DNA from: Pseudomonadota bacterium
GTDB taxonomy: Bacteria > Pseudomonadota > Gammaproteobacteria > Burkholderiales > Methylophilaceae
NCBI GenBank assembly: GCA_020053735.1
Contig: JAGVMP010000019.1
Location: forward strand, 1 to 64,000
Direction of reading: 5' to 3'
DNA length: 64,000 bases
The position numbers and the translations under genes were made by a program. The first letter of the stretch is position 1. Each line of letters opens with the position of its first letter. This document shows positions 6,119 to 63,238 of this stretch, one piece after another. Below the pieces are notes generated by a model that was not told the origin of the DNA, did not search any database, and saw only the letters and a list, made by a program, of their open reading frames with translations.

Positions 6119-6163
6119 CTGTTAATCCGTGTGTCCCTGGTTCGAGCCCAGGTCGAGGAGCCA
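6119..6163 (+). repeat. tRNA-Asn 3' fragment (copy A, att-like)
   Basis: From the anticodon loop (CTGTTAA) to the terminal CCA this reads as the 3' half of a tRNA-Asn gene. It includes the T arm CTGGTTCGAGCCCAGG and acceptor strand ending GAGGAGCCA. The sequence 5' of the anticodon loop does not match a tRNA, so this is not a functional gene. Tyrosine integrases that recombine in the anticodon loop leave exactly this kind of duplicated 3' end at the far side of an island. Copies with 4 mismatches or small indels occur at 57916, 61593 and 63175. I infer an attachment-site remnant. Confidence 0.7.
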
Positions 6164-6170
6164 AGATACA

Positions 6171-6201
6171 AGCCGTTGACAGCAATGTCAGCGGCTTTTT
6201 T
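6171..6201 (+). terminator. Hairpin with T-run after tRNA fragment A
   Basis: An 11-bp stem (AGCCGTTGACA paired with TGTCAGCGGCT, one G-T pair) with a GCAA loop is followed by six T residues. It is a strong intrinsic terminator on the plus strand, probably inherited with the tRNA end. Confidence 0.7.
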
Positions 6202-6259
6202 CATTTTGTACTTTGCTCAAAAAGTACAAATTCGGTACAGTAACCAATCCTACACCTTT

Positions 6260-6565
6260 TTATTTAGAACAAAAATGGCAACGATTGTTAAACTGAATCT
6301 GGTACCTGGAAGGCAGTCGTCCGCCGAACAGGTTGGCCAACATGAATTTCAGGAACTGATCCCTTTTGAATGGTTGCTCATCGTAGAAAACTGTCCGGCT
6401 CAAATATTCCTCCAGCGTGAGCTTGCCTTCCTCGCAAGTGGAGAAGTTCAGCCTATGCCGATCCTCCATCTCGCCCCACTCCAACTTGAATTTCGCCGTC
6501 GCCCGCTTGCGGGCATGACGACCCAACCCGTTAGTGAGCAGGACACCGCCAATATCCAAAAACAA
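6260..6565 (-). pseudogene. HAD-superfamily hydrolase, truncated at island edge
   Basis: The 101-residue frame starts with the HAD motif I signature (FLDIGGVLLTNG) and continues with a cap-like region typical of HAD phosphatases of about 200 residues. Motifs II to IV are absent. The last dozen codons look unrelated and run toward the tRNA fragment at 6.16 kb, so the gene was cut at the island boundary. The only start codon available is a TTG at 6565; an in-frame stop lies just upstream. It follows glgX directly. It probably encodes no active enzyme. Confidence 0.6.
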
Positions 6566-6588
6566 TGTCGTGATCGGGATATTTCATT

Positions 6589-8871
6589 TCATTTGGCCTC
6601 TCTCAATGTCATCTGCGAACCCAGACTGATTGTCTCTCGAACCAAAAGTATGGCACTAGATTGCGAGTCTAGTCGGTAAGCACGCGTATCTTCCCAAAGC
6701 GGCTCCTCGCCCACAGCAAACATATCTTGTGGCGCTTCGTGCGAAGTGTCAGCGAACAGATGCCACCGAGTATCTGGCAATAAGGGTGGCAAACTAAAAT
6801 CAACTGCATCTGCGCCAGCATTGAACATCAGGTACAAAGCATTGTGTTCGCCCTCAGGGATTAAACAGGCAAACTGCTTTTCTTTTGAGTCAGTCCATCT
6901 GGGCAAATCCCCTTGCGGGTTGAACCAAGAGATTTCCGCCTCCATGTAGAAGTGCTCCTGACTCAGAATCGGATGCGCTCGACGAAAGGCGATCATGCCA
7001 CGGGTGAAGCGGTACATTTCCTGATGCTGCTCCAGTTGGCTCCAGTCATACCAGCTGGTCTCGTTGTCCTGGCAGTAGGCATTATTGTTGCCTTGCTGCG
7101 TGCGGCAAAATTCGTCCCCGCCCGATAGCATCGGCACACCGCGTGAGATCAATAGGCTCAGCAGGAAGTTCTTGATCTGGCGTATCCGGATGGATTCGAT
7201 CTCTCCATCCGATGTCTCGCCTTCAACGCCGTAATTGTCGCTGAAATTCTCATTAGTCCCATCACGGTTGCTTTCTCCGTTGGCTTCATTGTGCTTGTTC
7301 CGATAACTCACCAGATCATGCAAGGTGAAGCCATCGTGACAGGTGACGAAATTGATGCTGCACTCAGGACATTTACCGGTCTTGGCATAAATGTCGGCGC
7401 TGCCACAGATGCGGCTAGCAAACGCACCTAGCATTCCATCGTCGCCACGCCAGTATCGGCGCACATCGTCACGGTATCTACCGTTCCACTCTGCCCAGCC
7501 CTGGGAAAAACTACCTACCTCATAAGCTCCTGCAGCATCCCACGCTTCGGCGATAAGTTTGGTTCCCCTCAGGATTGGATCTTCGGCAATCTGCTCGAGC
7601 AGTGGGGGATTCGACAGCAAATTGCCGATATTATCCCGGCCGAGAATTGACGCCAGATCAAAACGGAATCCATCGATATGCATCTCTAACACCCAGTAAC
7701 GCAGCGCACTCAAGATGAGATCCCGCACCACAGGATGGTTGGCGTTGATGGTATTGCCAGTACCAGCGTAGTTTTTGTAGTAGCGTTTGTCTGATGCCAG
7801 CGTGTAGAAAATCGCGTTATCAATCCCGCGGAAACATAACGTTGGGCCCAGCTCGTTTCCTTCTGCCGTGTGATTGAATACGACATCCAGGATCACTTCT
7901 ATACCAGCACGATGGAGCGCCAAAACCATCTCCTTAAACTCCAGCTTCTGCTGACCTAAGCCTCCAGCACTACTGTAGGAGGCTTTAGGTGCAAAGAAGG
8001 ACACAGGATCGTAACCCCAGTAATTTCTGAGTAGCTGGCCAGTTTGCGGATTGATACCCAGTACCTGCTGTTCATTAAACTCATGCACAGGCATCAGTTC
8101 CAAGGTCGTCACTCCCAAGTCTTTAAGGTGTGGGATCTTTTCTATCAGGCCGCGATATGTACCAGGATGTCTCACATTGGAGCTGGGATGAATAGTGAAG
8201 CCACGCACGTGTGTTTCATAAATAATCGTCTTCGGCCAGGGATGTCTGAGCGGCCGATCATCCTGCCAGTGGAAGTGCTCGTGAGTGAACACACATTTTG
8301 GCATGGCACCAGCATCATTGACTTTCGAACAAACCAGATTTTGCTCCAGTTCCAGCGTGTCGTAACCTCGCGCCGCGTCAAAATCCCAATCAGGCAATAT
8401 CGAAATCGCCGTCGCAAAAGGGTCTAGAAGAAGCTTGTTGAAATTGAAACGGTGTCCGTCCTTGGGCTGATACGGGCCGTCCACGCGATAGGCATACAGC
8501 TGGCCGGGCCGAATCCCCTCAATCCAGACGTGCCACACATCGCCAGTGCGGTTGCGCGCTGGATTCAGATCAATCGCCCTGGCGGCCATGACATCTTCAA
8601 CATGATCAAACAACTCCAGCTGGACGCGACTCGCATGTCGGCTGAAGAACGCAAAGTTAACTCCTTCGCCATGTGCATAGGCCCCCATAGGCAATGGCAT
8701 ACCAACTCGAACATCAGTCCGCTCCGATACCTCGGTTACATAAGCATGCAGAGGGCATTCGGTTGCGGTCATATCTGCGATTGCGTCTGCATTTTCTGTG
8801 GCATGGTCTGATATAGATAACACCTGACCTGCTGGCTTTTGCATTCTTTTAGGTCTTTTTGATTCCTTCAT
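6589..8871 (-). CDS. glgX: Glycogen debranching enzyme (isoamylase type)
   Basis: The 760-residue GH13 enzyme hydrolyses alpha-1,6 branches of glycogen. It has an N-terminal CBM48-like domain (about 55-170) and the amylase barrel with VVFNHTAEGNE, the nucleophile in GFRFDLAS (Asp near 403), the acid/base in LIAEAWD (Glu near 439) and the third carboxylate in CHDGFTLHDL (near 509). The first 55 residues before the conserved domain are poorly conserved, so an internal start is possible. It works with the glycogen phosphorylase encoded at 11-12.8 kb: GlgP shortens outer chains and GlgX removes the limit branches. It lies near the end of the group starting at the MerR-type promoter at 10.4 kb. 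Confidence 0.95.
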   Translation of the reverse strand: MKESKRPKRMQKPAGQVLSISDHATENADAIADMTATECPLHAYVTEVSERTDVRVGMPLPMGAYAHGEGVNFAFFSRHASRVQLELFDHVEDVMAARAIDLNPARNRTGDVWHVWIEGIRPGQLYAYRVDGPYQPKDGHRFNFNKLLLDPFATAISILPDWDFDAARGYDTLELEQNLVCSKVNDAGAMPKCVFTHEHFHWQDDRPLRHPWPKTIIYETHVRGFTIHPSSNVRHPGTYRGLIEKIPHLKDLGVTTLELMPVHEFNEQQVLGINPQTGQLLRNYWGYDPVSFFAPKASYSSAGGLGQQKLEFKEMVLALHRAGIEVILDVVFNHTAEGNELGPTLCFRGIDNAIFYTLASDKRYYKNYAGTGNTINANHPVVRDLILSALRYWVLEMHIDGFRFDLASILGRDNIGNLLSNPPLLEQIAEDPILRGTKLIAEAWDAAGAYEVGSFSQGWAEWNGRYRDDVRRYWRGDDGMLGAFASRICGSADIYAKTGKCPECSINFVTCHDGFTLHDLVSYRNKHNEANGESNRDGTNENFSDNYGVEGETSDGEIESIRIRQIKNFLLSLLISRGVPMLSGGDEFCRTQQGNNNAYCQDNETSWYDWSQLEQHQEMYRFTRGMIAFRRAHPILSQEHFYMEAEISWFNPQGDLPRWTDSKEKQFACLIPEGEHNALYLMFNAGADAVDFSLPPLLPDTRWHLFADTSHEAPQDMFAVGEEPLWEDTRAYRLDSQSSAILLVRETISLGSQMTLREAK

Positions 8872-8931
8872 GCGTTGATTTCTGTCGCCCTCCCTTGTTC
8901 CAGATTAGTTTACCGCTGCCAGAGACTGTGA

Positions 8932-9123
8932 TCAACTTCCAAGGGCACCACAATGCCGACGCAGTGCGGTATAACGCACAGCATATAAGCCATTGCGAGC
9001 CAGGCTGGCGATAGCCGCCTTGCCAGTTGAAGCCCTCGCTGTCGCCCATAAGGACGCTGAGGGTTTCCTGCCCGCGTTCGAGCCATGCCAGACTAGATCG
9101 ACCTTCGGAAGCGTCTTATTCAT
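8932..9123 (-). CDS. Possible small gene or broken gene, function unknown
   Basis: The ATG at 9123 is preceded by an excellent GAGGAG site, so translation probably starts here. The 63-residue product resembles nothing I recognise. A second minus frame (9049 to 8849) overlaps it, and its residues (for example GDSEGFNWQGGYR) look at least as protein-like. The simplest reading is a small gene, or a gene broken by a frameshift in the first 25 codons. I cannot decide between them. Confidence 0.3.
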   Translation of the reverse strand: MNKTLPKVDLVWHGSNAGRKPSASLWATARASTGKAAIASLARNGLYAVRYTALRRHCGALGS

Positions 9124-9161
9124 TTTTACTCCTCTTCAGTTTGAGGCTCATTGACCATTGC

Positions 9162-9448
9162 CTAGACGATATCCATAAGTTGGTCGGCATTCATGCTGTC
9201 ATGCTGAGTGCTCCAGAATTCCCACTCAACTCTGTAGAACGCGCCGAACACAAAACCGGCAGTGGTCAACATTACGAATCCTGTCAGGAAGCTGATGGGA
9301 CCACCATAGATCGGCCATGGACTGGCCGACGAAAGCTTGGCGAGAAACCCATAAGGTGGAAACAGCATATCAAAAATGGCGCACAGGATATATGCCACAG
9401 CCAAGTCGTAGCTAGCGAAAATGTATGCAATTTCCAAAAGTTAATCAT
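9162..9448 (-). pseudogene. DUF5676-like membrane protein, frameshifted
   Basis: An AAGGAG site precedes the ATG at 9448, which begins MINFWKLHTFSLAT, a start typical of DUF5676 proteins. The rest of the family-like sequence (LAVAYILCAIFDMLFPPYG and a second hydrophobic segment ending FGAFYRV) lies in another frame that is open from 9437 to 9162. One missing base within about codons 11-17 (near 9405) would join them. A full-length relative is at 39.9-40.2 kb, also directly after a small His-rich membrane protein. The break is either real decay or an assembly error. Confidence 0.6.
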
Positions 9449-9459
9449 GACAAATCTCC

Positions 9460-9642
9460 TTAATGTTGATGGCCTTGCGGCCGATCTTTGCTAGGTTTTT
9501 CTCCGGCTGCTGGGCGTTGATCTTCCTCGTCATGGCGACTACCGTGCCCGCCATGACATCCATGTCCAGACATATGCATTCCGATAAACGCCGCGAACAC
9601 CAGCACCCACACCCAGTTTTGCACTAGCCAGTCCATATCCAT
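9460..9642 (-). CDS. Small His-rich membrane protein (DUF2933-like)
   Basis: A 60-residue protein with one membrane segment (WLVQNWVWVLVFAAFIGMHM) followed by a His/Gly-rich tail (SGHGCHGGHGSRHDEE). Such proteins are common next to copper and other metal-resistance genes. Metal binding by the His tail is plausible but unproven. A clear paralogue is at 40223-40399. In both places it is followed by a DUF5676-like gene, so the pair is a duplicated module. A GGAGATGG stretch precedes the ATG. Confidence 0.7.
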   Translation of the reverse strand: MDMDWLVQNWVWVLVFAAFIGMHMSGHGCHGGHGSRHDEEDQRPAAGEKPSKDRPQGHQH

Positions 9643-9678
9643 CTCCTCATTTACGTTTGCTTCAATCCCTAAGAACTA

Positions 9679-9906
9679 CTACTTGGTCAGTTTGGTATCG
9701 GACTCAAGCTTGGCCTTGCGCTCTTCATATTCTGCCGTCGCAATTTCACCCGCAGCATAGCGGCGCTGTAATATCTCAAGCGGCGTCTCACGTCGTCGAA
9801 CGCGCGGTACTGGCGTAATCGGAGAAAACAACACCACGATCGCCACGATCCAGAATAACCACCAAAAAACGTGCATCCCCCATAAACTTTGTCCAATGTA
9901 ATGCAT
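9679..9906 (-). CDS. SHOCT-domain membrane protein
   Basis: A 75-residue protein with one N-terminal membrane segment (VFWWLFWIVAIVVLF) and a C-terminal SHOCT motif (PLEILQRRYAAGEIATAEYEERKAKL). SHOCT is a short helical-hairpin domain found at the ends of many membrane or secreted proteins and thought to mediate oligomerisation. It belongs to the run of small proteins between the MerR-type promoter and glgX. No specific function can be assigned. Confidence 0.8.
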   Translation of the reverse strand: MHYIGQSLWGMHVFWWLFWIVAIVVLFSPITPVPRVRRRETPLEILQRRYAAGEIATAEYEERKAKLESDTKLTK

Positions 9907-9976
9907 AATTTATTTCCTTGTTGAAATATAAAATATTCTTAACCAATTGCGTCTCTCATCACTCCCTTAATTGTGG

Positions 9977-10177
9977 TTAGAGTTTACCTTCAGCCAGCAA
10001 CCGATCAATTTCAGCTTCTGCGGCCAGCCAGTTCTCCAAATCACAACCTGAAATAAATCCCTTACTTTCGGCGATGTTATAGGCAGCAATCTCAATATAG
10101 TGCTGACGTTGCTCTTCTGTCAGCGTGGCATCACCATTGGTCTTTGCTTTGGTTTTGGTTTTGGTATTAGTACTCAT
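9977..10177 (-). CDS. DUF2934 protein
   Basis: A 66-residue soluble protein with a Lys/Thr-rich N-terminus (TKTKTKAKTNGD) and a DUF2934 helix pair (QHYIEIAAYNIAESKGFISG, then CDLENWLAAEAEIDRLL). The ATG at 10177 is chosen because AAGGAG lies just before it; that site sits inside a longer frame starting at 10192. DUF2934 proteins often sit in stress-related clusters with glycogen genes, but their role is unknown. A frameshifted paralogue lies 700 bases upstream, on the other side of merR. Confidence 0.8.
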   Translation of the reverse strand: MSTNTKTKTKAKTNGDATLTEEQRQHYIEIAAYNIAESKGFISGCDLENWLAAEAEIDRLLAEGKL

Positions 10178-10371
10178 TCTTTTCTCCTTCATATAAAAAA
10201 TTACAGTTCGTCGTAGCCCTTGTTTTTCACCATCTTAGGTTTCAGCCATAGCCTGGTCTCCTACATGTGATGCACTCATGGTGCTGAGTGCGCTTGTGTC
10301 GCACAACAGCTGTTTCAAGTAAGCAGTTGCTAGCGCTACACGATCATCATCTTTCGTATTGTCATTACAGT

Positions 10372-10407
10372 AACTATAATAAAAGCTGTGTGTAGCACAT
10401 AAGTCAA
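10372..10407 (-). promoter_or_regulatory. MerR-type promoter of the DUF2934-SHOCT-glgX group
   Basis: On the minus strand TTGACT (10407-10402) is followed after 19-20 bases by TTATTAT. MerR regulators need such an over-long spacer, which they twist to activate. The spacer holds a short dyad TGTG-CTA-CACA. The -35 overlaps the stop codon of the merR gene. A promoter with the same start and dyad (TTGACTTAxGTGxxACACA) precedes glgP at 12.88 kb. Confidence 0.5.
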
Positions 10408-10814
10408 TCTTTCATTGCTATCGCTTCGATAAGTTGGCACACAGCTTCTCCATCTGGCATGCCATCGGGCATATTCACCCATAGTGCTACTGCATGCTCC
10501 ATGCGCACCTGTAAATTCTCCAAATCCTGTAGCTTGCGGCGGGTTTCTTGAAGATGCTGATCCATGAGCTTTCGCACCCGCGGACAAGGAGAGTGTCCAT
10601 GGCTGCTCTCTTTCAAAATATCTTGGACATTTCCCACGCTGAACCCCAGCAGACGCGCCTTGCGGATAAACAATATGCGCGTAAGATCACCGCTGCTATA
10701 GCAGTTATAGCCGTTACTTTCATCGCGTTCTGGGACAAGCAAGCCACAGCGCGTGTAGTGACGCACGGTATCTGCAGTTACTCCTGCACGTCTGGCGAGT
10801 TCTGAAACTGTCAT
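10404..10814 (-). CDS. MerR-family transcriptional regulator
   Basis: The 136-residue product begins with the MerR helix-turn-helix (TVSELARRAGVTADTVRHYT) and second wing (LLVPERDESNGYNCYSSGDL), followed by a dimerisation helix (about 80-120). A Cys-containing segment, GHSPCPRVRKLMDQHL, occupies the position of the first metal-ligand cysteine in heavy-metal MerR proteins. The C-terminal CC motif of CueR/ZntR is missing, so the inducer is uncertain. An AGGAGGT site precedes the ATG. It probably acts on the two long-spacer promoters at 10.4 and 12.9 kb and so couples metal or redox stress to glycogen breakdown; that is inference. Confidence 0.85.
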   Translation of the reverse strand: MTVSELARRAGVTADTVRHYTRCGLLVPERDESNGYNCYSSGDLTRILFIRKARLLGFSVGNVQDILKESSHGHSPCPRVRKLMDQHLQETRRKLQDLENLQVRMEHAVALWVNMPDGMPDGEAVCQLIEAIAMKD

Positions 10815-10856
10815 AGACCTCCTTGTTCAAGTAGAAGCATTCTTAACGAGTTGCTG

Positions 10857-11040
10857 CTAGAGCTTACACTCAGCCAGCAACCGATCAATTTCCGCTTCTG
10901 CGGCCAACCAGTTCTCCAGATCACAACCGCCGATGAATCCTTTACTTTCAGCGATGTTATAGGCAGCAATCTCAATATAGTGCTGACGTTGCTTTTCTGT
11001 CAGCACAGCATCCCCCCCCTGTTTTGGTATTAGTACTCAT
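10857..11040 (-). pseudogene. DUF2934 paralogue, out of frame at a G8 tract
   Basis: From the ATG at 11040 this closely matches the DUF2934 gene at 9977-10177 in DNA and protein (MSTNTKT, then QRQHYIEIAAYNIAESKGF, CDLENWLAAEAEIDRLL). A run of eight G (minus strand) after codon 7 shifts the frame. With seven (or ten) G the frame would stay open to the TAG at 10857. It is either an inactive duplicate, a gene switched by slippage in the G tract, or a homopolymer error. Confidence 0.65.
11012..11019 (-). repeat. Poly-G tract (G8) inside the DUF2934 paralogue
   Basis: Eight consecutive C on the plus strand, i.e. eight G in the coding direction, within the first 10 codons. Tracts of this length slip readily during replication and could switch the downstream frame on or off. 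Confidence 0.6.
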
Positions 11041-11059
11041 GGCCAAATAGGGTCGCGTC

Positions 11060-12820
11060 TCATCGGATATACGCTTCTGTCGCATAACGGCGCATCATGC
11101 GATGACTATTGAAATAGGAAGCATTCTTGCTGATTGCGCCTTTCATTACTTTGACCCAGTTGCTACGATCATTGCTGTAATAGAGAGGGAGCACTACCTG
11201 CTCTAGCTTGTCGTATAATTCATGTCCGTCGCCGTCGGCTCTTTCCGTAATGTCGCCGATCGCCCAGCCAGTCTCTCCTTCGATGCAGCCTTCGATCCAC
11301 CAGCCATCCATAACCGATAGGCTGGGTACGCCATTGAGCGCGGCTTTCATGCCACTGGTGCCAGAAGCTTCTAGCGGCGGCAATGGTGTGTTGAGCCAAA
11401 TATCTGCTCCCGCCGTCAGCGTCTGAGCCAGCTCAATGTTGTAATCAGGCAGATAGGCAACCGAAATCGCGCCAGCCAAGTCGCGCGCATGAGCTTGCAG
11501 TTGCTCAATCAGGTGTTTGCCATTTTCGTCGTGCGCATGCGCCTTGCCGGCAAGTACGACCTGGAACGGGTATTGGCGGGCGATTGTTTTCAGTCTCTCA
11601 ATATCGAAGAACAGCAAATCTGGACGTTTATAGGCCGTCATACGCCGCGCAAAGCCAATAATCGGTAGCTTCGGATCCAGCGAAACCCCAGTGAGAGCTT
11701 GCACCTTCTCAATGAGATGCTGTTTCGCCTGAACATGCGATTCCCAAATCGCCGCATCTGGAATGCAACAATCGGCACGGATCAGCAGCTGCGGTTCATG
11801 GCACCAGCCAGGTAAATAATGGTTGTATAGCTGGCGAAAGCTTTCTGCTGTCCATGTGAACGGGTGCACGCCGTTGGTAATGGCATGTACTCGATAACCA
11901 GGAAACATTGCATTCGACACCTCAGCATGTTTTTTGGCAACGCCGTTGACATATTCACTCAAATTCAGAGCCAGCCGCGTCATATTCAGATTGTTTTCGC
12001 CAGCCAGATGTTTGATGCCTTCGATGTCAAAGTCATTATCGAGCACCCTCTGCACCATATCGTAGGCAAAGCGATCATGACCTGCTTCAATCGGGGTGTG
12101 TGTAGTAAAGCTGCACAAATCCCGCACTCTGGGAAGATCATAACGTGACTCACCCGACCTAACATCTTCGGTTGGGTAGGCATAGCGGCGTAGCAATTCC
12201 AGCCCAAGCAATGCGGAGTGCCCCTCGTTCATGTGATAGTGACGGACGGTAACACCGAGTGCTTGCAGCATCCGTACACCGCCAATTCCGAGCACGATCT
12301 CCTGCTTGAGCCGGTAGGCTGTATCTCCGCCATATAAATAATGCGTAATCTCACGGTCCTCAGGGTGATTTTCGTTCAGGTCGGTGTCGAGCAATAGCAC
12401 TGGTTGGCGCCCGCCCATGTGACCTTCAATCACATACAACCAAGCACTGACCCATACAGCGCGCCCCTCGATAAGCACCGCTACTTTGGCGTCTAGCGCA
12501 CGTGTCCAGCGCTCAGGTTCCCAGAAGATCGCCTGCTCAACCTGCCGACCCTGGGCATCAATCTGCTGATGAAAATAACCGGCACGGCTTACCAGGCTCA
12601 CCGCCACTATTGGTATCATTAGATCAACCGCAGACCGCACCGTATCACCAGCAAGTACACCAAGGCCACCAGCATAGGTCGGGATTTCGTTGCGCAGTGC
12701 TATCTCCATGGAGAAATATGCAACGCGAGGTCCGTGGTTGAATTCGTCTAGCATGATTGCCCTCTCATTTTGTGGATTCGGTCGCTTGATAGCATGCGAG
12801 ACAAGTCGCCATGCACTCAT
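11060..12820 (-). CDS. glgP: Alpha-glucan (glycogen) phosphorylase, short GT35 form
   Basis: The enzyme cleaves alpha-1,4-glucan with phosphate to glucose-1-phosphate. The 586-residue frame shows the bacterial short-form start (PRVAYFSMEIALRNEIPTYA), a central active-site region and the PLP-binding segment SGTSGMKAALNG (Lys near 487). I give the longest frame. An internal ATG at 12754 (MLDEFNHGPRVAYFSMEIA) has a stronger site (GAGAGGG) and matches where relatives usually begin, so the true protein may have about 564 residues. Its product feeds Pgm encoded at 19.5-21.2 kb. A MerR-type promoter lies about 40 bases upstream. Confidence 0.92.
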   Translation of the reverse strand: MSAWRLVSHAIKRPNPQNERAIMLDEFNHGPRVAYFSMEIALRNEIPTYAGGLGVLAGDTVRSAVDLMIPIVAVSLVSRAGYFHQQIDAQGRQVEQAIFWEPERWTRALDAKVAVLIEGRAVWVSAWLYVIEGHMGGRQPVLLLDTDLNENHPEDREITHYLYGGDTAYRLKQEIVLGIGGVRMLQALGVTVRHYHMNEGHSALLGLELLRRYAYPTEDVRSGESRYDLPRVRDLCSFTTHTPIEAGHDRFAYDMVQRVLDNDFDIEGIKHLAGENNLNMTRLALNLSEYVNGVAKKHAEVSNAMFPGYRVHAITNGVHPFTWTAESFRQLYNHYLPGWCHEPQLLIRADCCIPDAAIWESHVQAKQHLIEKVQALTGVSLDPKLPIIGFARRMTAYKRPDLLFFDIERLKTIARQYPFQVVLAGKAHAHDENGKHLIEQLQAHARDLAGAISVAYLPDYNIELAQTLTAGADIWLNTPLPPLEASGTSGMKAALNGVPSLSVMDGWWIEGCIEGETGWAIGDITERADGDGHELYDKLEQVVLPLYYSNDRSNWVKVMKGAISKNASYFNSHRMMRRYATEAYIR

Positions 12821-12861
12821 TTACTGTCATCCTGCATATCGGTCGCACCATAATCGTTCTC

Positions 12862-12892
12862 AGCTTAAACCTTTGTGTTACACCTAAGTCAA
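12862..12892 (-). promoter_or_regulatory. MerR-type promoter upstream of glgP
   Basis: On the minus strand TTGACT (12892-12887) is followed by a 19-base spacer and a -10-like TAAGCT/TTTAAG. The spacer contains the dyad GTGT-A-ACAC. It shares TTGACTTAxGTGxxACACA with the promoter at 10372-10407. Both would suit one MerR regulator. Confidence 0.45.
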
Positions 12893-12947
12893 TCTCAGAG
12901 TCAGAGCACCAAAACACATCGTTGTTCTAAAGGTGACTATAAACAAA

Positions 12948-13301
12948 CTAGCCTGCTGTGGTAGTCCTTTGTTGCGCAGCTCGACGAATCTCGGTTTGTA
13001 GGAAATAATTAAGTACAGTTCGTAGTACTACAATGGCGGCAAGCTTGCCGATTTCCTCCCAACTCGGTGCAATTGTGGTTCGCAAAATATCAGCTGCTAA
13101 CTCAAATTCGATTGCAAGCGAAAGCCATAACCCAAATTGTAGTCTGACATCCTCCTTCTCTGCGGTAGAGGGGCTACGCCGAAAAAATAGGCCTGCTACG
13201 GTCACAGCGCATTGCAGACTTGCTAACCCGATCAATAAGGCTGCGATAATCTCAATTGCGCTCACAAGGTAAAGCATTCCACTACTAACAATAGGAAGCA
13301 A
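12948..13301 (-). CDS. DUF1622 family membrane protein
   Basis: A 117-residue inner-membrane protein with three hydrophobic segments. The family hallmark is the block QFGLWLSLAIEFELAADILR, followed by WEEIGKLAAIVVLRTVLNYF. DUF1622 proteins are widespread and uncharacterised. The N-terminus here (MLPIVSSGMLYLVSAIEIIAA) and an AAGGAGAG site support the start. It sits between glgP and the copper genes, as its own unit or with copBA upstream. Confidence 0.8.
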   Translation of the reverse strand: MLPIVSSGMLYLVSAIEIIAALLIGLASLQCAVTVAGLFFRRSPSTAEKEDVRLQFGLWLSLAIEFELAADILRTTIAPSWEEIGKLAAIVVLRTVLNYFLQTEIRRAAQQRTTTAG

Positions 13302-13403
13302 GAAACTCTCCTTTTAAAACATCAAGCCCGTGGCACTTTAGCGACTTTTGAAAAAATGACACTTGGTTTGCAGTTAATCGAGAGTGATGCTTTTTAATCC
13401 AAG

Positions 13404-16207: not shown

Positions 16208-16358
16208 ATTCAGCCTTTCTGTTTTTACATCACTATCTGAGCCGGCAACATGAGTAGTCTTTAAAGGACAGTTGAGTGCACAAAATTATATATACGCTGC
16301 CAACTGACCTTGTCGCCATCATCATCTCCTGCCCTAGCTATGCGTACTTTCCTTCAAA

Positions 16359-16710: not shown

Positions 16711-16835
16711 AATTTAGTCTCCTGTATTGACTAATATCAATCTTTTGCCATTTACTTCATCAACTCACCAACTCCACTATGAACGCTGTTATATTTTTTA
16801 TCTGTGCGTTGCCGAACTTAACAAGGCCGTAGCTA

Positions 16836-50283: not shown

Positions 50284-52617
50284 CTACCTGGTACTAGCGC
50301 CCCTCAAACGGAGCGCGTTGGTAATCACTGATACCGAACTCAAGCTCATCGCTAGGGCAGCAATCATCGGCGAGAGTAACCAACCCGTAAATGGATAAAG
50401 TACACCAGCTGCTAACGGCACACCTAACGCGTTATAAATGAATGCAAAGCCCAAATTTTGTTTCATATTGATGATGGTTTGTTCAGATATGGCACGCGCT
50501 TGCGCTATACCACGCAAGTCTCCTTTAACGAGCGTGACTTGAGCGCTGTTCATAGCGACATCAGTGCCAGTACCCATTGCCACACCTACATCGGCCTTGG
50601 CTAATGCAGGTGCATCGTTAATGCCATCTCCCGCCATCGCTACCACACGGCCATCGCGTTGTAACTTATCTACTAATTCTAGCTTATCGGCGGGTTTAAC
50701 TTCTCCATATACTTCATCAATACCTAACTTAGCGGCCACTGATTTTGCCGTAAGCAGGCCATCGCCTGTCGCCATGATAACGCGCATACCTGAAGCTTTT
50801 AAGGTATTTAATGCTTCGGCTGTGCTTACTTTGATTGGGTCTGATACTGATAACAATCCTGCTGGCTGACCATTAACGGCTAGATACATAACACTAGCAC
50901 CTGTTGCACGTAATTCTTCTGCTTGTTCTTTTAATGACTCGATTTGAACATTGAGCTGGCCCATCAGCGCAGTATTCCCAAGCGCTAATTGTTTACCATT
51001 GACACTACCACGCACGCCAATACCCGTGCTGGACTCAAAGCCATCTACCTTATCAATAACCAGATTCTTTTCACGCGCTGCTTTCACAATGGCATCTGCT
51101 AAGGGGTGCTCACTGCCTTGGTCAAGACTGGCTGCTAGGCGTAACACCTCATCTTCAGTATAGCCTGATGCTGCTAAAGCTAAATTAAAACGTGGTTTAC
51201 CTTCAGTTAGCGTACCAGTCTTGTCTACAATTAAGGTGTCGACTTTGCGGAAGTTTTCGATAGCAGCTGCGTCGCGGAACAGAATACCTTGCGTTGCAGC
51301 TTTTCCAGTGGCGACCATGATAGACATCGGTGTTGCTAAACCTAGCGCGCATGGACAGGCAATAATGAGTACCGCCACTGCGTTGATTAAACCAAATACC
51401 CAACTTGGCTCTGGACCAAGTAACCCCCAAACGACAAATGTCAGTAATGCAATTACGGCGACAGTGACTACAAAGTAGCCGGCCACTTGATCCGCCATAC
51501 GTTGCATGGGCGCTTTAGAGCGTTGAGCTTGAATGACCATCTGCACAATACTGGCCAATACTGTCTGTGAACCTACTTTTTCTGAGCGCATAATTAATGC
51601 GCCATTGGTATTAAGTGTTGCACCAATGAGCTTATCACCGACACCTTTAGTGACTGGCATTGGCTCGCCAGTGAGCATGGATTCATCCACTGCGCTACCG
51701 CCTTCGGTCACAACGCCATCGACGGGCACTTTTTCGCCTGGCCGTATGCGTAACATATCACCTACATGCACATGCGTAAGTGGCACATCTTCTTCTCTAC
51801 CATCCGCATTAATCCTGCGGGCTGTTTTAGGCGATAGACCAAGTAAAGATTTAATCGCAGCAGAAGTTTGTGAGCGTGCTTTAAGTTCTAAAATTTGGCC
51901 AAGCAGAGTCAGTGAAATAATCACTGCCGCCGCTTCAAAGTAGACGGCTACGCGACCCATCGTCATAAACGATGCAGGGAATACATTGGGTGCAACCGTC
52001 GCGACAACGCTGTAAATAAATGCGGCTGCAGTCCCCAAGCCTATCAATGTCCACATATTCGGGCTGCGATTGATGACGGATTGAAAGCCACGTACAAAGA
52101 ACGGCCAACCAGCCCATAATACTATGGGTAGCGACAATACAAGCTCAATCCAGCTTTGCGTAACCATTTCAAACCATTGCAAACGATGCCCCACCATCGC
52201 CAGAATAGTAACGATGACAGTCAGTGGCAACGTCCAAACAAAACGCTGTTTGAAGTCTGCCAACTCAGGGCTTTCTTCATCATCTAAGCTGGGCATCTCC
52301 GGCTCTAATGCCATGCCACATTTAGGACAAGCGCCCGCATGGTCTTGCCTCACTTCAGGGTGCATCGGGCAGGTGTAAATGGTGCCAGTGGGGATTGGGG
52401 CGGGCGGAGTAGATTTTGTTTCTAAAACTGCGGTATCAGCGCTTGAGTCTGCAACTAAATACTTAGCTGGATCAGCCGCAAACTTAGCTTGGCAGCCAGC
52501 ACTACAAAAGTAAACTGGCTTACCTTTATATTTAAACACATTGGGCGATTGATTCGTCACGGTCATTCCGCAGACTGGATCTTTTAATGTTGGTTTTATT
52601 GCATTATCAACACTCAT
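50284..52617 (-). CDS. copA: Copper-exporting P1B ATPase with YHS and HMBD domains
   Basis: The 777-residue pump exports Cu(I) from the cytoplasm. The N-terminus has a YHS domain ([26 protein letters not shown]), then a heavy-metal-binding domain ([23 protein letters not shown]). The core has [18 protein letters not shown] (near 422), DKTGTLT (near 461), SEHPLAD and [10 protein letters not shown]. It is 12 bases downstream of the copper chaperone gene. The domain order is typical of proteobacterial silver/copper ATPases. The symbol is shared with the multicopper oxidase at 14.2 kb and is a family name only. Confidence 0.93.
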
Positions 52618-54532: not shown

Positions 54533-54533
54533 A

Positions 54534-57225: not shown

Positions 57226-57311
57226 CGAAATCTCATTTCAAAAATAAATGTGAACAATCTGCAACAGACTAAATTAAAGCCTGTTGCAAGAGTTAAACTA
57301 CAGTATATTTT

Positions 57312-57689
57312 TTAAGAGATAGGTGGTCTGTTCGGCTGTGCACTGACGTGCGAGATGTAGCTAGATTCAAACAAGCTATTAGCAACCGCATGAACCTCAG
57401 ATTGCATATTATCTAATTGACTTGGTGGCAAAACGGTAAAGCAAGCCATGCAATGGCCGCATTTTGAGCAATGATCACTGGAAGACTCTTCCTGCTGAGT
57501 ATCATCTTTGTGATGATCATGTGCGTCAACATGAGTTGGTTCTGGAGAATGTGCATTATCGGTAGTATGGTGATTTGCAGATAACTGATCTGCAACCATC
57601 ATGCCGCTAGCGTAAATAGTGTCAGTAAAGAACACGGCTAGTAGCAGGAAAATAAAAGTACGCAATGATTTAAGCTGTTTAAATTGCAT
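57312..57689 (-). CDS. Small periplasmic His/Cys-rich protein
   Basis: The 125-residue protein has a signal peptide (FIFLLLAVFFTDTIYA), a His-rich stretch (HVDAHDHHKDDT) and a HCSKCGHCMACF cluster near 78-89. The pattern resembles small metal-resistance proteins such as CzcI or DUF2946, but I cannot assign it firmly. It lies 86 bases upstream of the DUF2231 gene and is probably the first gene of this copper group. Confidence 0.65.
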   Translation of the reverse strand: MQFKQLKSLRTFIFLLLAVFFTDTIYASGMMVADQLSANHHTTDNAHSPEPTHVDAHDHHKDDTQQEESSSDHCSKCGHCMACFTVLPPSQLDNMQSEVHAVANSLFESSYISHVSAQPNRPPIS

Positions 57690-57915
57690 AACGCCATCTT
57701 ACTCCAATTAGAATAAGTTAAATTAATTTGTTTAATATCTTTCTGAAGAGACATGCATAATAACTATTTTGGAAATAACTTATTTGAGATTACGCTGCTA
57801 TTAACGTAACTAAACTTCCTAAATTAATCTTGTCTATATTTTTTATATTGCAATTCGGAATAGACTAGAATTGCAACGCATTGATTATTATATAATTTTT
57901 AATACAAATTTTAAT

Positions 57916-57960
57916 CTGTTAATACGTGTGTCTCTGGTTCGAGTCTAGGTCGAGGAGCCA
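57916..57960 (+). repeat. tRNA-Asn 3' fragment (copy B, att-like)
   Basis: Forty-five bases matching copy A from the anticodon loop to CCA with four substitutions, none affecting the length. The T arm is weakened (CTGGTTCGAGTCTAGG). The 300-base gap 57690-57992 otherwise holds only AT-rich DNA and the hairpin that follows. It lies at the end of the 52-kb module and directly before the GGDEF-EAL gene. Confidence 0.7.
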
Positions 57961-57970
57961 AATACCTAGA

Positions 57971-57994
57971 GGCCTACAGGAATGTAGGGCTTTT
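57971..57994 (+). terminator. Hairpin after tRNA fragment B
   Basis: CCTACA paired with TGTAGG around a GGAA loop, followed by GCTTTTAA. A weaker intrinsic terminator on the plus strand. It resembles the hairpin after copy D. Confidence 0.5.
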
Positions 57995-60900
57995 AATTTT
58001 TAGAAACAGCCTTAAGCAACTTCTCAAATTCTGCCGCAGGCAAGGGCTTGGAGTACAGATAGCCCTGCGCATAATCACAACCTGCTGCGAGCAGTAAGTC
58101 ACGCTGCCCCTCAGTTTCCACGCCCTCCGCAATCACCTTCATGCCGAGTTTATGCGCCATCACAATAATGGCTTCACACAGCACCATATCGCTGGAGCCT
58201 AGCTCTAGGTTGCCTGTAAAAGATTTGTCGATTTTGACATAATCGATATCGAATTTCTTCAGATACGACAGGGATGAATAGCCAGTGCCAAAATCATCTA
58301 TCGATATCTGCATGCCAGCATTACGGAATTCAAGCAATTGGACGGTGACAGTAGCCCTAGCGTGCAGCAGCAAGCCTTCGGTAATCTCCACAGCAATACT
58401 CTGCCCCGGCAAATCAAGCTGACGCAGATAATCTATCCAATCAACATGCGTATTGCCAGTGGCGTGGAACTGCACTGGGGACTTATTCACGCTGACCTGA
58501 AATGTGGCATGGTGAGAAGCACGCCAGAGTTTCACCTGTTTTGCCGCCTCGGTAAATACCCAGTTGCCAATGTCATTAATCATACCGGTCTCTTCTGCAA
58601 TCGGAATGAATTCAATAGGACTCACTAAACCACGTGTTGGGTGCTGCCAACGAATAAGGGCTTCTGCTTTATAAATAGCGCCTGTTGCCAGTTCGATAAT
58701 GGGTTGGTAATAGAGTATAAACTCGCTGTTAGCCACTGCATCACGTAAGTCAATGGTAAGACGCTTTTTCGCCTGGGCGGTTTCCTGCATGGAGGCAGTA
58801 AAATACTGGTAACGATTACGCCCTAGATCTTTGGCGGTATACATGGCCTGATCTGCGTTTTTGAGCAATACATCAATATCTGTAGCATCCTCTGGATACA
58901 GCGTAATGCCAATACTCGCCGAAACGTAGGCAACATCATCACCCAATTGAAATGGTTCTGCCAATTTCTGCAAGATATTGCGGACCACCCGCTCCACGTT
59001 TGTTGGGTGATTAAGATTGCCTAGGATAATAATGAATTCATCCCCGCCTAAACGGGCAACCGTATCTGTTGCCCGTACGCAGCCAATCAAACGTCTGGCG
59101 GCCTCTTTAAGCATGATGTCGCCCATGCTGTGGCCAAATGTGTCGTTAACCTCTTTAAATCGATCAAGGTCAAGAAACAGCACAGCTAAAGCTTGCCCTG
59201 CACGTTGCGCTTTTCTGATTTCCTGATTCAAACGATCATGGAACAATTGACGGTTAGGTAATTCAGTCAATAAATCGAAATTAGCCTGTTTCCAGATGAG
59301 GTCTTCCGACTGTTTCCTTTGGGTAATGTCAGAGAACAGTGCCACCCGACGATGTACTGATCCGTTTTCTTGGTAAATCGTATTGATGGTGAGTAATTCT
59401 AGAAAAGTCTCACCATTTTTGCGTTTGTTCCATAGTTCGCCTTTCCACTGTCCAGTCGTAGCTACTTCTTTCCATATCTCTTTATTGAGCTTATTGTTCC
59501 CAATGTCCGAATACAAGATTTTGGCATTCTTGCCGATAATTTCTTCTGACGTGTATTCCATAATCCTAGTAAAGGAAGGGTTGATGGAAAGGATATTATT
59601 GTCGGCATCCGTCACCATCATTGCTTCACTACTGACTTCATAGACAGAAGCTGCCAACAACAGGGATTCTTGCGCTAATTGTCGCTGCATTTCATGATCA
59701 AAATTATCAAGCGCGAAGGAAATGTTCACCGTCATTTCATCCAGCAATGCAATGGCCTCTTCATTAAAAGCGTTAGTTTGCTCATGATAAACAGAGAGTA
59801 CCGCAAACGGTCGCCCACCACGCTGGATTGGGAAGGCAGCACAGGAGTTCCAGCCATATTTGGCAGCTCGCGCCTGCCAAGGCAAGGTTCTCGGATCGAC
59901 CGAGAAATTGTTAACAATAACTGTTCGATTCTCACGGAGTGCCGTACCAGTAGGCCCGAGTCCTTCCGGCATGTCAGCACGCGAAGAAATGGTGATATCA
60001 GTTAGATAGTCCTGCCCGAAACCGTAGCTCGCGGACGGCACAATCAAACCGCTTTTATCATTTAGCTGGCCAATCCACGCCAACTTCATACCCCCGAATT
60101 CGACGGCGCAACGGCATACCAGCGGAAACAGTTCTGTTTGCTGCTTCATGCGTACGATAGCCTGATTAGTTTCGCTGAGTGCCTGATAAAGTTGCGACAA
60201 GCGTATTACCCGTGCCTGTGCAATCTTGAGCTCATTCAATTCCTCGCTTATCTCCCGCGAGGCTTGCACGGCACGTGCCCGTTCTTGCACCAGCAGCCAG
60301 ACTAGGAGGAGTGCCAAGCCTATACTGCTGCCAACAATAGTGACGAACCGCGGTTTTGATTGGTCTAGCCTCGCCTCAAAAGCAGGATGAGAGCTGACCA
60401 CCATGGTCCAGACATGGCCAGCAATTTCAAGTTCTTGGGAAGACTGAAAGAGCGGTTTCTCTGTTCCGAAAGCTCGCCGTACGCGATCAGCATCGTACAT
60501 CAACGTCTTTTCCGACGGCTTATTGCCGTCGAAAATCTCAATGTCGATATCGGTTACGTGCTCCCCAAGGATGCCTCCCATCAGGTCATTCGCACGGAAC
60601 AGCGCGTAAACCCAGCCAACAAGGTTGGCGCGACGATTAGCCAAGGTGTCATGTGGTGCGCCATTTTTATATATGGGCATATACATCTTAAAACCGACTT
60701 GTTCATGTCCCTTAATGTCTGCCACCAGTTTTATGGGCCCAGATAAGGCTGCCATATCGTTATCACGTGCCTGCACCATAGCGGCACGGCGCAATGGCTC
60801 GGTATACATATCGTAACCAAAAGGACGCTGATTAATGACAGAAAATGGTTCGATATAAATAATGGAGGTAAAAATACTGCGGTCACTCACTGGCCAAATA

Positions 60901-61295
60901 GAAAATGCTGGAAATCCTTCATTGCGGACGCTGGTGGTGAATTTGTCTTTCTGCGCAGGGGGGATGACTTGCGCATAACCTACACCTTGAATGCCGGGGA
61001 AGTTTTGATCGAGATTTAGTTTATTAAAGAAGGTACGGAAAGCGCTACGGCTCACGCTCTCGGAACTGGCAAACAGGCCTTGCACCCCGCGCAACTGCTG
61101 CTCGTAAGCCAACATGCGCTGCTCAATACGGACCCCAGTTTCGCGGACACGGAAATTAAAATCGGTTTGCAGCGTATCAGTAGCATGCTGCTGTTCGTTC
61201 TTCCGCAACTGGAACGTCACAGTCAAGATAATAGCAAACGCCATCCACGGCAGCCACCTGCTGAGCTTTGGCCATGTTAGCGGGCGCCAGTTCAC
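57993..61295 (-). CDS. CHASE-GAF-PAS-GGDEF-EAL signalling protein
   Basis: The 1100-residue protein has an N-terminal membrane anchor (LPWMAFAIILTVTFQL), a periplasmic CHASE domain (about 40-330), a second anchor (VGSSIGLALLLVWLLV), then GAF (about 375-525), PAS (about 545-665), GGDEF and EAL domains. RLGGDEFIIILG and the RATD inhibitory site five residues earlier are intact, as are the EAL motif (AEALIRWQHP) and DDFGTGYSSLSYL. It could both make and break cyclic di-GMP in response to an external ligand. It is the only gene of the module between tRNA fragments B and C. Confidence 0.93.
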   Translation of the reverse strand: MNWRPLTWPKLSRWLPWMAFAIILTVTFQLRKNEQQHATDTLQTDFNFRVRETGVRIEQRMLAYEQQLRGVQGLFASSESVSRSAFRTFFNKLNLDQNFPGIQGVGYAQVIPPAQKDKFTTSVRNEGFPAFSIWPVSDRSIFTSIIYIEPFSVINQRPFGYDMYTEPLRRAAMVQARDNDMAALSGPIKLVADIKGHEQVGFKMYMPIYKNGAPHDTLANRRANLVGWVYALFRANDLMGGILGEHVTDIDIEIFDGNKPSEKTLMYDADRVRRAFGTEKPLFQSSQELEIAGHVWTMVVSSHPAFEARLDQSKPRFVTIVGSSIGLALLLVWLLVQERARAVQASREISEELNELKIAQARVIRLSQLYQALSETNQAIVRMKQQTELFPLVCRCAVEFGGMKLAWIGQLNDKSGLIVPSASYGFGQDYLTDITISSRADMPEGLGPTGTALRENRTVIVNNFSVDPRTLPWQARAAKYGWNSCAAFPIQRGGRPFAVLSVYHEQTNAFNEEAIALLDEMTVNISFALDNFDHEMQRQLAQESLLLAASVYEVSSEAMMVTDADNNILSINPSFTRIMEYTSEEIIGKNAKILYSDIGNNKLNKEIWKEVATTGQWKGELWNKRKNGETFLELLTINTIYQENGSVHRRVALFSDITQRKQSEDLIWKQANFDLLTELPNRQLFHDRLNQEIRKAQRAGQALAVLFLDLDRFKEVNDTFGHSMGDIMLKEAARRLIGCVRATDTVARLGGDEFIIILGNLNHPTNVERVVRNILQKLAEPFQLGDDVAYVSASIGITLYPEDATDIDVLLKNADQAMYTAKDLGRNRYQYFTASMQETAQAKKRLTIDLRDAVANSEFILYYQPIIELATGAIYKAEALIRWQHPTRGLVSPIEFIPIAEETGMINDIGNWVFTEAAKQVKLWRASHHATFQVSVNKSPVQFHATGNTHVDWIDYLRQLDLPGQSIAVEITEGLLLHARATVTVQLLEFRNAGMQISIDDFGTGYSSLSYLKKFDIDYVKIDKSFTGNLELGSSDMVLCEAIIVMAHKLGMKVIAEGVETEGQRDLLLAAGCDYAQGYLYSKPLPAAEFEKLLKAVSKN

Positions 61296-61592
61296 TTACA
61301 ATGTCTCTTACTGCTGGTACGTGGCATTAACCCAGCTATCTGCCATAACCAGACCTGCGATAATCTGTTCAAATCATTCGCCTTTGTTTGTGTTGTGGAT
61401 ATATTGCTTTTATACAAACAGTACTAAAGGTTACAGGTGTATTCTAACCTAAATTCATTAGGGTGCATGATTACTAAGGATGCTTCCCAGCCTGCAGAAT
61501 CTAATGGAGTGATTGCTAAGCCAGTAGCATCTGCCCACTGGGTTTCAAAAGACCCTCATATGATGTAACTTGAATGATTAAGCTATTATCTA

Positions 61593-61636
61593 CTGTTAAT
61601 CCGTGTGTCCCTGATTCGAGCCAGGTAGAGGAGCCA
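61593..61636 (+). repeat. tRNA-Asn 3' fragment (copy C, att-like)
   Basis: Copy of the tRNA-Asn 3' end from CTGTTAATCCG to CCA, one base shorter than copy A and with substitutions in the T loop and acceptor strand. The 430-base gap 61296-61728 otherwise shows no gene I can support. Confidence 0.65.
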
Positions 61637-61642
61637 ATATAC

Positions 61643-61670
61643 AAGCCGCTGAGAGAGATTCCGGCGGCTT
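61643..61670 (+). terminator. Hairpin after tRNA fragment C
   Basis: AAGCCGC paired with GCGGCTT around a 14-base loop, followed by TAACTTTT. Resembles the hairpin after copy A (AAGCCG...CGGCTT) but with a poorer T-run. Confidence 0.45.
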
Positions 61671-61728
61671 TAACTTTTCCTGCAAAATATAAATTTAGAT
61701 GTTTATACTTGGTGTAAATATGTAAATT

Positions 61729-62904
61729 CTATTCACGATAAAACATTCTACCATCCCCCAATAGGTGCGCATGGCAGTCTTTGCGAGCATTGAGGCAGTT
61801 TTTAACGATACCTTCTAGTTCCTTCTCATCCCATCCGTTCACCCAATCTGCGTGGCCTGAGTAGCCGGCATTACGGCCATTAAAGGTGTAATTATCAGAG
61901 GCCAGACGCCATTTGTTCATGGGGCTATCGGCATGTACTTTGTAATTTAAGTTAAGGGAGATTTCAGGAAAGATTACAGGATGAGTAGCAGGACATATAC
62001 CAGATCGCGAGGGATAAGCCATGTGGTCTTGATGGTTTGGGCTATCGAGGTTTTTGCCATCCCAGCATTGCGGGAATAACACAACCTGCTGCATAAATGA
62101 TTCGGGACCACAGTTAGGTATAGTGCTTTGCCACTTCATGCCATTGCTATGCTGCATCGCAATATTAATGCATACATACTTGCTTGCTTGCGATTGACCA
62201 AATGTGGTCGCCTTTGGGTTACCAGCCAACATACGCAAGCCTATTGGTGGAGGTTTGATTCTACCCCCAAATGCAGGATGGCCGACTTTGTAATAAAAGA
62301 TAGCGCCTTGATCCGGTAAAACAGCGGCATTTGTCAGCGTGTTGATGATGGTCGGGTGCCAATAGGCACTGCGATTCATAATACCGCCATCGCAGGTGCT
62401 ATTGCCAGTGGTTGATAATTGGTCTAAATCAGTATCGAATCTCACCTGAGTATTACCATAAAACGTGTGATGATGCGACGCACCTTCTTGTCCAGGGTAA
62501 ATCATCGGGTCATCATTGCTCATATGACTTACCAGACATGAGATGCGGAATGCGCTATCCCGGGTAGCTTTAGCTTGCTCGTTGGTTGGCCTAATGCGCA
62601 GATCGCTATAACCTTCTGCCGGTGTGATATTTTTGCTGATGTCCACGACAGGCATCAAACCAGTTTGGCCTGGCGGTGGCGTAGGTTTAGGGGTTGGCAC
62701 CGTGTCAGGGACTGGTGCCGGTGTCGTTGTGGCGGCTGCTGGTGCAGGGGTTGCAGCCTCTGCCAGAGCAGGCGATCTGGCCATAACAATTTGGTTGACC
62801 TCCCCCATGATATTAAATAAGGCTGGAAACGCATTTGTGGTGAATAATGTTAATGCAAGTAATATTAAGATTATGCCAATTAAATAGGGTTTAGTCGTGT
62901 TCAT
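61729..62904 (-). CDS. DUF1996 secreted or membrane-anchored protein
   Basis: The 391-residue protein has an N-terminal anchor (LIGIILILLALTLFTTNAF), a Pro/Ala/Thr-rich linker (about 50-80) and the DUF1996 domain: CLVSHMSNDDPMIYPGQEG, SHHHTFYGNT, RSAYWHPTI, FPQCWDGKNLDSPNHQDHMA, GHADWVNGWD. The His-rich conserved residues suggest a metal-dependent or carbohydrate-related function. The family is mostly known from fungi and actinobacteria and is uncharacterised. It is alone between tRNA fragments C and D. Confidence 0.85.
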   Translation of the reverse strand: MNTTKPYLIGIILILLALTLFTTNAFPALFNIMGEVNQIVMARSPALAEAATPAPAAATTTPAPVPDTVPTPKPTPPPGQTGLMPVVDISKNITPAEGYSDLRIRPTNEQAKATRDSAFRISCLVSHMSNDDPMIYPGQEGASHHHTFYGNTQVRFDTDLDQLSTTGNSTCDGGIMNRSAYWHPTIINTLTNAAVLPDQGAIFYYKVGHPAFGGRIKPPPIGLRMLAGNPKATTFGQSQASKYVCINIAMQHSNGMKWQSTIPNCGPESFMQQVVLFPQCWDGKNLDSPNHQDHMAYPSRSGICPATHPVIFPEISLNLNYKVHADSPMNKWRLASDNYTFNGRNAGYSGHADWVNGWDEKELEGIVKNCLNARKDCHAHLLGDGRMFYRE

Positions 62905-63174
62905 TTTTCAACTCCTAATCACCTTTGTTCGATTTTAATATCATCTCTAGCCAAATAAAAATCAGCGGCTGCAACAACGATCTAGGCTTCGGTGTCAACT
63001 TGACGTTTGACAGTGAGGGAAGAGCCGTCACGCAAAGCAACAAGCTAAGAATCAGCAAGGTGTTTTTTCAATTTTAGCTTCCTTTTTAACTACATCAATG
63101 ATTTTATTACCATGGGTGAGAATTGCAATGGTATGTTGCCGATGACCTCTTGTTAAAGCTAATAAGGATCCATG

Positions 63175-63197
63175 CTTCGAGCCCAGGTCGAGGACCA
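63175..63197 (+). repeat. tRNA-Asn 3' fragment (copy D, degraded)
   Basis: Only TTCGAGCCCAGGTCGAGGA and CCA (one G lost) are recognisable. A GTTAA at 63152 may be what remains of the anticodon loop. The rest of the 368-base gap 62905-63272 shows no gene. Confidence 0.55.
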
Positions 63198-63212
63198 CAT
63201 ATGGTGAAATAA

Positions 63213-63238
63213 CCCTACATAGACTTAGGGCTTTTTTT
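63213..63238 (+). terminator. Hairpin with T7 after tRNA fragment D
   Basis: CCCTA paired with TAGGG, then GC and seven T residues. Similar to the hairpin after copy B. Confidence 0.55.

Follow-up and report, generated by a model that had tools for sequence, protein, structure and literature searches.

A tRNA-Asn array in a Methylophilaceae genome, very probably built by successive insertion of integrative elements

Organization of the locus

The genome comprises 2.44 Mb in 19 contigs; the DNA analysed here, referred to as the window, is the initial 64 kb of the 288,582-bp contig C5. No tRNA was found by ARAGORN in the 64-kb window. The intact tRNA-Asn (GTT), 76 nt long, lies on the minus strand of contig C4 (C4:12851-12926) and is followed by a hairpin; a gene for a tyrosine integrase of 340 aa (C4:11794-12816, Pfam) adjoins it, with the gene end 34 bp from the CCA of the tRNA, and is itself preceded by an HTH_17 gene. 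The tRNA gene and the integrase that the first-pass annotation had proposed to seek to the left of the window are thus both present on C4. This contig opens inside a 3207-aa RTX ORF (C4:3-9626), next to which an HlyD gene is found (C4:9699-11114). C5 begins with a minus-strand ORF cut by the contig end (window positions 1-2094, the first 698 codons), which shows a GHSLGG motif, is lipase-like by eye and may be the continuation of the RTX ORF on C4; the ABC transporter gene that lies further on (3455-5728, minus strand, Pfam) probably forms one type I secretion operon with the HlyD gene. From the core genes and from the secretion operon divided between them, C4 (reversed) and C5 would surround one locus, with what would be a single operon; the contig ends share no exact overlap of at least 12 bp, so that the join would span a gap of some length.

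The five intervals delimited by the tRNA gene and its displaced copies (A to E, described below) are indicated as M1 to M5. Of 53 non-overlapping ORFs of at least 150 aa counted between the tRNA and C5:79000, 52 point leftward; these are mechanical ORFs, of which at least one is doubtful. The first-pass statement that the genes are all leftward agrees with this count and fails for two rightward features, an integrase remnant at 6275-6342 and a BrnT/BrnA toxin-antitoxin pair located in M1, before copy A (2928-3447, plus strand, Pfam). A leftward ORF of 232 aa that overlaps the pair has no Pfam match and is probably not a gene. Both directions occur among the modules of relatives, and one-directionality is therefore no rule.

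Displaced copies of the tRNA 3' half and their hairpins

Smith-Waterman comparison of the intact 76-nt tRNA-Asn with the window gave scores of 45, 37, 39 and 23 for A, B, C and D in turn; when the bases of the window were shuffled 20 times (one strand), the highest score reached was 19. The four tRNA-Asn 3' fragments first noticed at 6119, 57916, 61593 and 63175 are thus real, all of them scoring above the best shuffle. Copy A (6119-6163, plus strand), at the end of M1 and the start of M2, is identical to the tRNA 3' half (nt 32-76) in 45 of 45 positions; copies B (57916-57960, plus strand, 41/45) and C (61593-61636, plus strand, 42/45 with one deletion) are each followed by a hairpin. These three run from the anticodon loop to CCA, as had been proposed, but the 5' part of copy D (63169-63197, plus strand) has decayed, leaving about 30 nt (nt 47-76) recognisable and a weak hairpin. 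The array does not end with four copies: a fifth, E, lies beyond the window in the same tRNA orientation (C5:66484-66527, plus strand, 35/45 identical). Decay along the array is not strictly monotonic, since E is nearer to the intact gene than D, and C slightly nearer than B. When whole tRNAs were used as query on this and related loci, 23 of 28 displaced copies started at nt 28-33, on the 5' side of the anticodon loop.

The hairpins of A, B, C, E and the intact gene fold better than shuffled sequences (z of -6.8, -2.7, -3.8, -2.5 and -4.5, respectively), but that of D does not (z -1.1, with 30 of 200 shuffles equally good), and a hairpin after each copy can be maintained for A, B and C and not for D. 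Of the likenesses noticed between hairpins, A to C was confirmed by eye, but B is closer to E and to the intact gene than to D. The hairpin after copy A (6170-6197, plus strand) is terminator-like, with a GCAA tetraloop and then a T run; a GNRA or near-GNRA loop of four bases, then T, is also found in the hairpins of the intact gene, B and E. Across the 650 kb of DNA retrieved, in which att sites abound, terminator-like sites most often have GAAA, GCAA or GCGA as their four-base loop, and a hairpin of the copies' type occurs away from any tRNA at C11:13640. A special recombination structure was considered for these hairpins and discarded, the GNRA-type loop with T and the tRNA-free example on C11 being more simply accounted for by a terminator. 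In the simplest reading, the hairpins would end tRNA transcription, and each element would bring its own terminator for the tRNA rebuilt by its insertion.

The newest element and its integrase family

M1 contains the integrase, the HTH_17 gene and the RTX and secretion genes. The RTX protein would reach at least 3900 aa, accompanied by type I secretion genes, if C4:3-9626 and window positions 1-2094 are one gene; this very large protein and its secretion genes seem to form the cargo carried by the youngest element. Beside the integrase, on C4, a direct repeat (CGTAGCCAAATCGTACC) is found at +49; a matching arm-like direct repeat (CGTAGCTAAAACGTAAC, 5996-6012, plus strand) precedes copy A by 123 bp. 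The two are thus paired at +49 and -123 with a period of 11 bp, and by place and pairing they would be arm-type binding sites.

A scan of the named genomes with the M1 integrase gave 119 candidates, 79 of which were kept as loci. In 65 of them a tRNA 3' end faces the integrase within 250 bp, the targets being tRNA-Lys (18), Met (10), Phe, Asn and Arg (9 each), Ser and Thr (3 each), Leu (2), Ala and Val (1 each); the other 14 have no tRNA within 250 bp, two of them with less than 150 bp of DNA remaining. A direct repeat of period 11 (YGTRNY N5 YGTRNY) occurs within 120 bp in 50 of the 65 loci, 32 of the 50 carrying it at +46 to +50; on one strand, the background of this motif is 52 in 2150 chunks of 300 bp of the fetched DNA. 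The displaced copy falls within the DNA covered at 21 loci. Among the 17 named elements with both right repeat and distal copy, 12 show a matching left repeat between -118 and -128 relative to the copy (three at Asn, five at Lys, three at Met and one at Phe) and five lack it at the expected place. Likewise, no left repeat was found by motif in six of ten tRNA-Asn elements with a full-length integrase (G146, G064, G159, G154, G013 and G012), some of which have integrases of other lineages. With ten kinds of tRNA and a conserved geometry, this family lends itself well to the study of target change in tRNA-targeting integrases. Those of its targets seen at tRNA-Asn, Phe, Lys and Met have AATCCG after the anticodon in common, which may help explain target switching. 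A 3.1-kb tRNA-Asn element of G135 (contig C1, L100:3433-6639) has both repeats and genes for an integrase, HTH_17 and Rep_trans (PF02486) proteins; it is perhaps a minimal autonomous form of the M1 type.

The second element

The sequence that begins with copy A (6119-6342) is identical in 217 of 225 bases to the end of an element found at the tRNA-Asn of G154, which belongs to another genus. The likeness takes in the core, the hairpin, a repeat and the first part of an integrase gene that reads rightward. The repeat, GTACCGAATTTGTAC (6224-6238, minus strand), differs in sequence and orientation from those of M1, and the integrase start (6275-6342, plus strand), which reads away from the tRNA, is truncated and frameshifted. 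No intact integrase lies in the window, as was noted at first, but the start of a truncated one follows copy A. The G154-type integrase shares 26% identity with that of M1 over 278 aa. Because of the 217/225 match and of the truncated integrase, M2 would owe its arrival, at least at the copy A side, to an integrase of another lineage, which it would then have lost.

No match to the G154 element was found at the left end of M2, which precedes copy B. The best repeat match there has five mismatches; the G154 element itself carries a repeat with two mismatches about 130 bp before its copy. Since the end before copy B is unlike the G154 element, M2 may be composite. The cargoes of the two elements are also unlike. 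That of M2 (6589-57689, minus strand; 36 ORFs scanned with Pfam) lies in the 51.75 kb from A to B, which have a GC content of 49.0%, compared with 42.7 and 43.7% for the two core flanks. It includes sugar and glycogen enzymes, copper and metal genes (CopB, two multicopper oxidases, three P-type ATPases), an ABC exporter, CMAS and PPK2. The gene for a copper-type P-type ATPase (window positions 50303-52514) has 79% DNA identity with the gene after the third tRNA-Asn site of G145, a member of another genus, and the two would be metal cargo common to one hotspot; no further decayed copy was found inside M2 near this gene, which in G145 also stands after a copy.

The small distal modules

M3 and M4 consist of one gene each by domain search: a CHASE-GAF-PAS-GGDEF-EAL gene (57993-61295, minus strand) and a DUF1996 gene (61729-62904, minus strand), respectively. 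M5 has a GGDEF gene (63273-64000, minus strand, running on to C5:64106) and, outside the window and before copy E, a GGDEF-EAL gene (C5:64374-66356), a counterpart of which, with 82% DNA identity, is present in the variable region of G013. A second copy of the DUF1996 gene, 64% identical, occurs at C5:105667-106764; signs of mobility of this gene were not found in other genomes.

No integrase was detected in M3-M5 by HMM or by BLAST against the integrases collected here. Best matches of the M1-type repeat to the left of B, C, D and E have 8, 9, 7 and 6 mismatches, which is the random range (6-9 mismatches in 19,377 of 20,000 random segments). Thus no arm of the two kinds tried is seen to the left of B-E, where arms of other kinds would escape recognition; this absence is weak evidence, the left repeat also being missing by motif in the six of ten elements with a full-length integrase mentioned above. 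Since no arm is recognised, the integration origin of B-E rests on core, hairpin and position. Most likely, M3-M5 are old elements whose integrases were lost by deletion and decay, leaving cargo genes.

The same locus in relatives

A query made of the tRNA-Asn and its hairpin has matches in 15 of 15 genomes of the genus, in G003 in the hairpin part only. The locus is bordered by left core genes for proteins of 678, 341 and 412 aa and by right core genes for 497, 257 and 806 aa. In G012 and G014, and in G005 except for the 497-aa gene, both sets lie on the contig of the tRNA-Asn, at either side of it, with differing content in between; G010 and G013 have other contents too, no right core gene being found within the stretch read. 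Conversely, in five members of the family the site is near-empty, the distance from the tRNA to the match of the 497-aa right core gene being 0.24 kb in G056, 0.9 kb in G095, 1.3 kb in both G017 and G019, and 2.25 kb in G097. An empty site is missing in three of the eight regions read: in G076 the left core is present with no right core within 10 kb, in G118 the left core is about 5 kb off with no right core, and in G121 neither core is seen. The comparison of related genomes suggested at the outset thus gave near-empty sites in some family members and differing contents in others. In the present genome, the tRNA is separated from the right core by 12.85 kb on C4 and 81.3 kb on C5 plus the gap, i.e. 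at least 94 kb, of which at least 79.3 kb lead to copy E; homology to relatives resumes at C5:80339, a border that no copy marks. The locus therefore has the features of an additive flexible genomic island, namely one place, varying content and near-empty sites in some genomes.

Origin of the array

The array very probably arose by tandem accretion of integrative elements at one tRNA-Asn, with the newest element by the tRNA and the one-gene modules as old remnants. The successive insertion proposed from the first reading is borne out by the intact gene with its adjoining integrase, by the near-empty sites and differing contents in relatives, and by the confinement of the displaced copies to C5. 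In such a process, a tyrosine recombinase encoded on each incoming circle would act at the anticodon-loop region of the chromosomal tRNA-Asn, the attP core of the circle being a tRNA 3' half with its own terminator-like hairpin. Each insertion would rebuild a complete tRNA-Asn with a new hairpin and displace outward every older element together with the previous 3' half and its hairpin; the array would then be roughly ordered by age, from M1 at the tRNA to the oldest modules towards the right core genes. Catalysis by the M1 integrase and this order of events are what we infer from sequence.

A different proposal, which appears unlikely, is that of a working tRNA-anchored cassette system, where small integrase-less units, each with a core, a terminator, a pair of arm sites and one or two genes, would be moved in trans by resident integrases, much as integron cassettes are. 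It bears on a census of 22 tRNA-Asn modules, a non-random sample from the 14 fetched genomes having a second copy on one contig (left out are G001, whose copies are on other contigs, and regions of G089, G151 and G156 C5). Twelve of these modules have no full-length integrase, eight of the twelve being under 2.5 kb, and they include four of the 14 tRNA-proximal modules, as a cassette system would have it. Full-length integrases are nevertheless confined to the proximal modules (10/14, against 0/8 of the distal ones; Fisher p 0.0017), a 131-aa integrase piece being found in one distal module (G135). This contrast fits the decay of buried elements, which predicts the loss seen in all eight distal modules.

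A candidate for such a unit is located at the tRNA-Asn of G145 (contig C75, L104:4693-7180). It measures 2.4 kb, has no integrase and includes a perfect 45-bp copy; the repeats at its two sides, at +43 and -123 counted from nt 32, are identical but for one base. Its genes are a HIT gene and a ThsA macro gene, scored by PADLOC as ThsC and ThsA (a Thoeris-type pair), plus a 92-aa ORF; the next module of G145, of 1.8 kb, has an Mrr-like nuclease gene and a 99-aa ORF. Judged by its sequence, the unit keeps both attachment sites, as a cis-mobilizable element would. It speaks against such movement that a search of the remaining 186 family genomes (E<=1e-40, two candidates scored per genome) yielded nothing of the unit beyond a 120-bp match at the tRNA of G169, and that the one G145 integrase locus examined carries a repeat different from that of the unit, in a genome that is 79% complete. 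Within the array itself, the cassette-like arrangement first suggested is not demonstrated for copies B-E: their cores have decayed and, compared with a cis-mobilizable element, M3-M5 show no arm of the two kinds tried, an absence of little weight as arms of other kinds would go unrecognised. Nor does the array resemble an integron in its enzyme or its repeats, since the M1 integrase scores 61 bits with the best NCBIfam recombinase model, whose cut-off is 220 bits, and the repeats are tRNA 3' halves. In its broadest form, the idea would make of the anticodon-loop att sites, the built-in terminator and the two-arm frame (about +49 and about -123) a common platform for gene-sized units without integrase, like that of G145, moving in trans from one genome to another, and of the tRNA-Asn locus an integron-like collector in Methylophilaceae; this too is doubtful. 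Element ends, with their core, hairpin and paired repeats, are defined enough to predict which units might still be mobile.

It is far less probable that only two or three large insertions took place and that C-E are later local duplications of the tRNA end during rearrangement. The small modules lie without exception in the distal part of the array, which, together with the decay of D and E, would suit this history; however, duplication of one end would not produce downstream spacers and hairpins that differ among the copies, and other small modules occur at tRNA-Asn in relatives. Finally, a dispersed repeat without link to module borders, in favour of which nothing speaks except the hairpin-only match on C11, is ruled out by genome-wide searches: the C11 hairpin aside, these located copies at the intact gene on C4 and in the array on C5; in this genome a pattern allowing up to three mismatches has one forward and one reverse match, and among 187 genomes counted it has at most one match per genome in the 47 of the small-genome genera g2 and g16.

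Relation to known systems

Tandem accretion at tRNA genes is itself long known, and the locus is a long, readable example of a known route of gene gain: a record, at least 79 kb long, of serial acquisition at one site in the chromosome of a methylotroph. The array is less unusual than the first-pass annotation held, as published accounts already describe repeat arrays at tRNA or ssrA genes, among them, in the accessible part of PMC10872708, tRNA-Lys repeats in Methylophilaceae. The latter belong to fGI-2, an additive flexible genomic island of a 'Ca.' member of this family, with 20-bp repeats and units of 330 bp to 42 kb and 1 to 63 genes, metal and stress functions included (PMC10872708). The two arrays share the family and the succession of repeated tRNA 3' ends with highly variable units; here, unlike in fGI-2 as described in those passages, the target is tRNA-Asn, the copies are 45 bp long, start in the anticodon loop and have hairpins, the integrase is identified and the repeats are paired (PMC10872708). 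The term 'Asn' has 0 occurrences in the accessible text of that paper (PMC10872708), and no description of this tRNA-Asn array was found among the matches listed in a literature search that left subscription journals mostly outside. Tycheposons, as described in the same passages, have a tRNA border, a tyrosine recombinase, cargo and a size of 4-200 kb, all of which are found here (PMC10872708).

Another comparable array, according to the sections available, is that of the Dehalococcoides ssrA islands, which follow a single RNA gene in tandem and show more than a dozen repeats of its 3' end; an integration module is present in 16 islands and absent from 15, the latter being discussed as possible cis-mobilizable elements (PMC3146451). 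There the enzyme is a serine recombinase and the target a tmRNA, whereas tyrosine recombinases and tRNA-Asn are involved at the present locus (PMC3146451). The additive fGI1 of Alteromonas, as far as the excerpted text describes it, resembles the array in the conserved tRNA target for added cassettes, the metal-efflux cargo and the length that varies among strains, and differs in host and cargo (PMC4119200).

Like the tDNA islands of the Islander type, in the parts of the source at hand, the array has a restored tRNA gene, a displaced 3' fragment and a site centred on the anticodon (PMC4383910). Indeed, one intact tRNA gene (C4) and five 3' fragments in the same orientation (C5, with C4 reversed, the join being inferred) are present; as for the tyrosine integrase that each island should carry, M1 has one, M2 has a truncated one and in M3-M5 none was found. 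Units without integrase or under 2 kb are rejected by Islander (PMC4383910), and for this reason M3-M5 could not be resolved by it; small units would be overlooked by any tool that requires an integrase or at least 2 kb. Among the 3919 islands reported in the same sections, 125 tandems are of two or more and four of three or more (PMC4383910).
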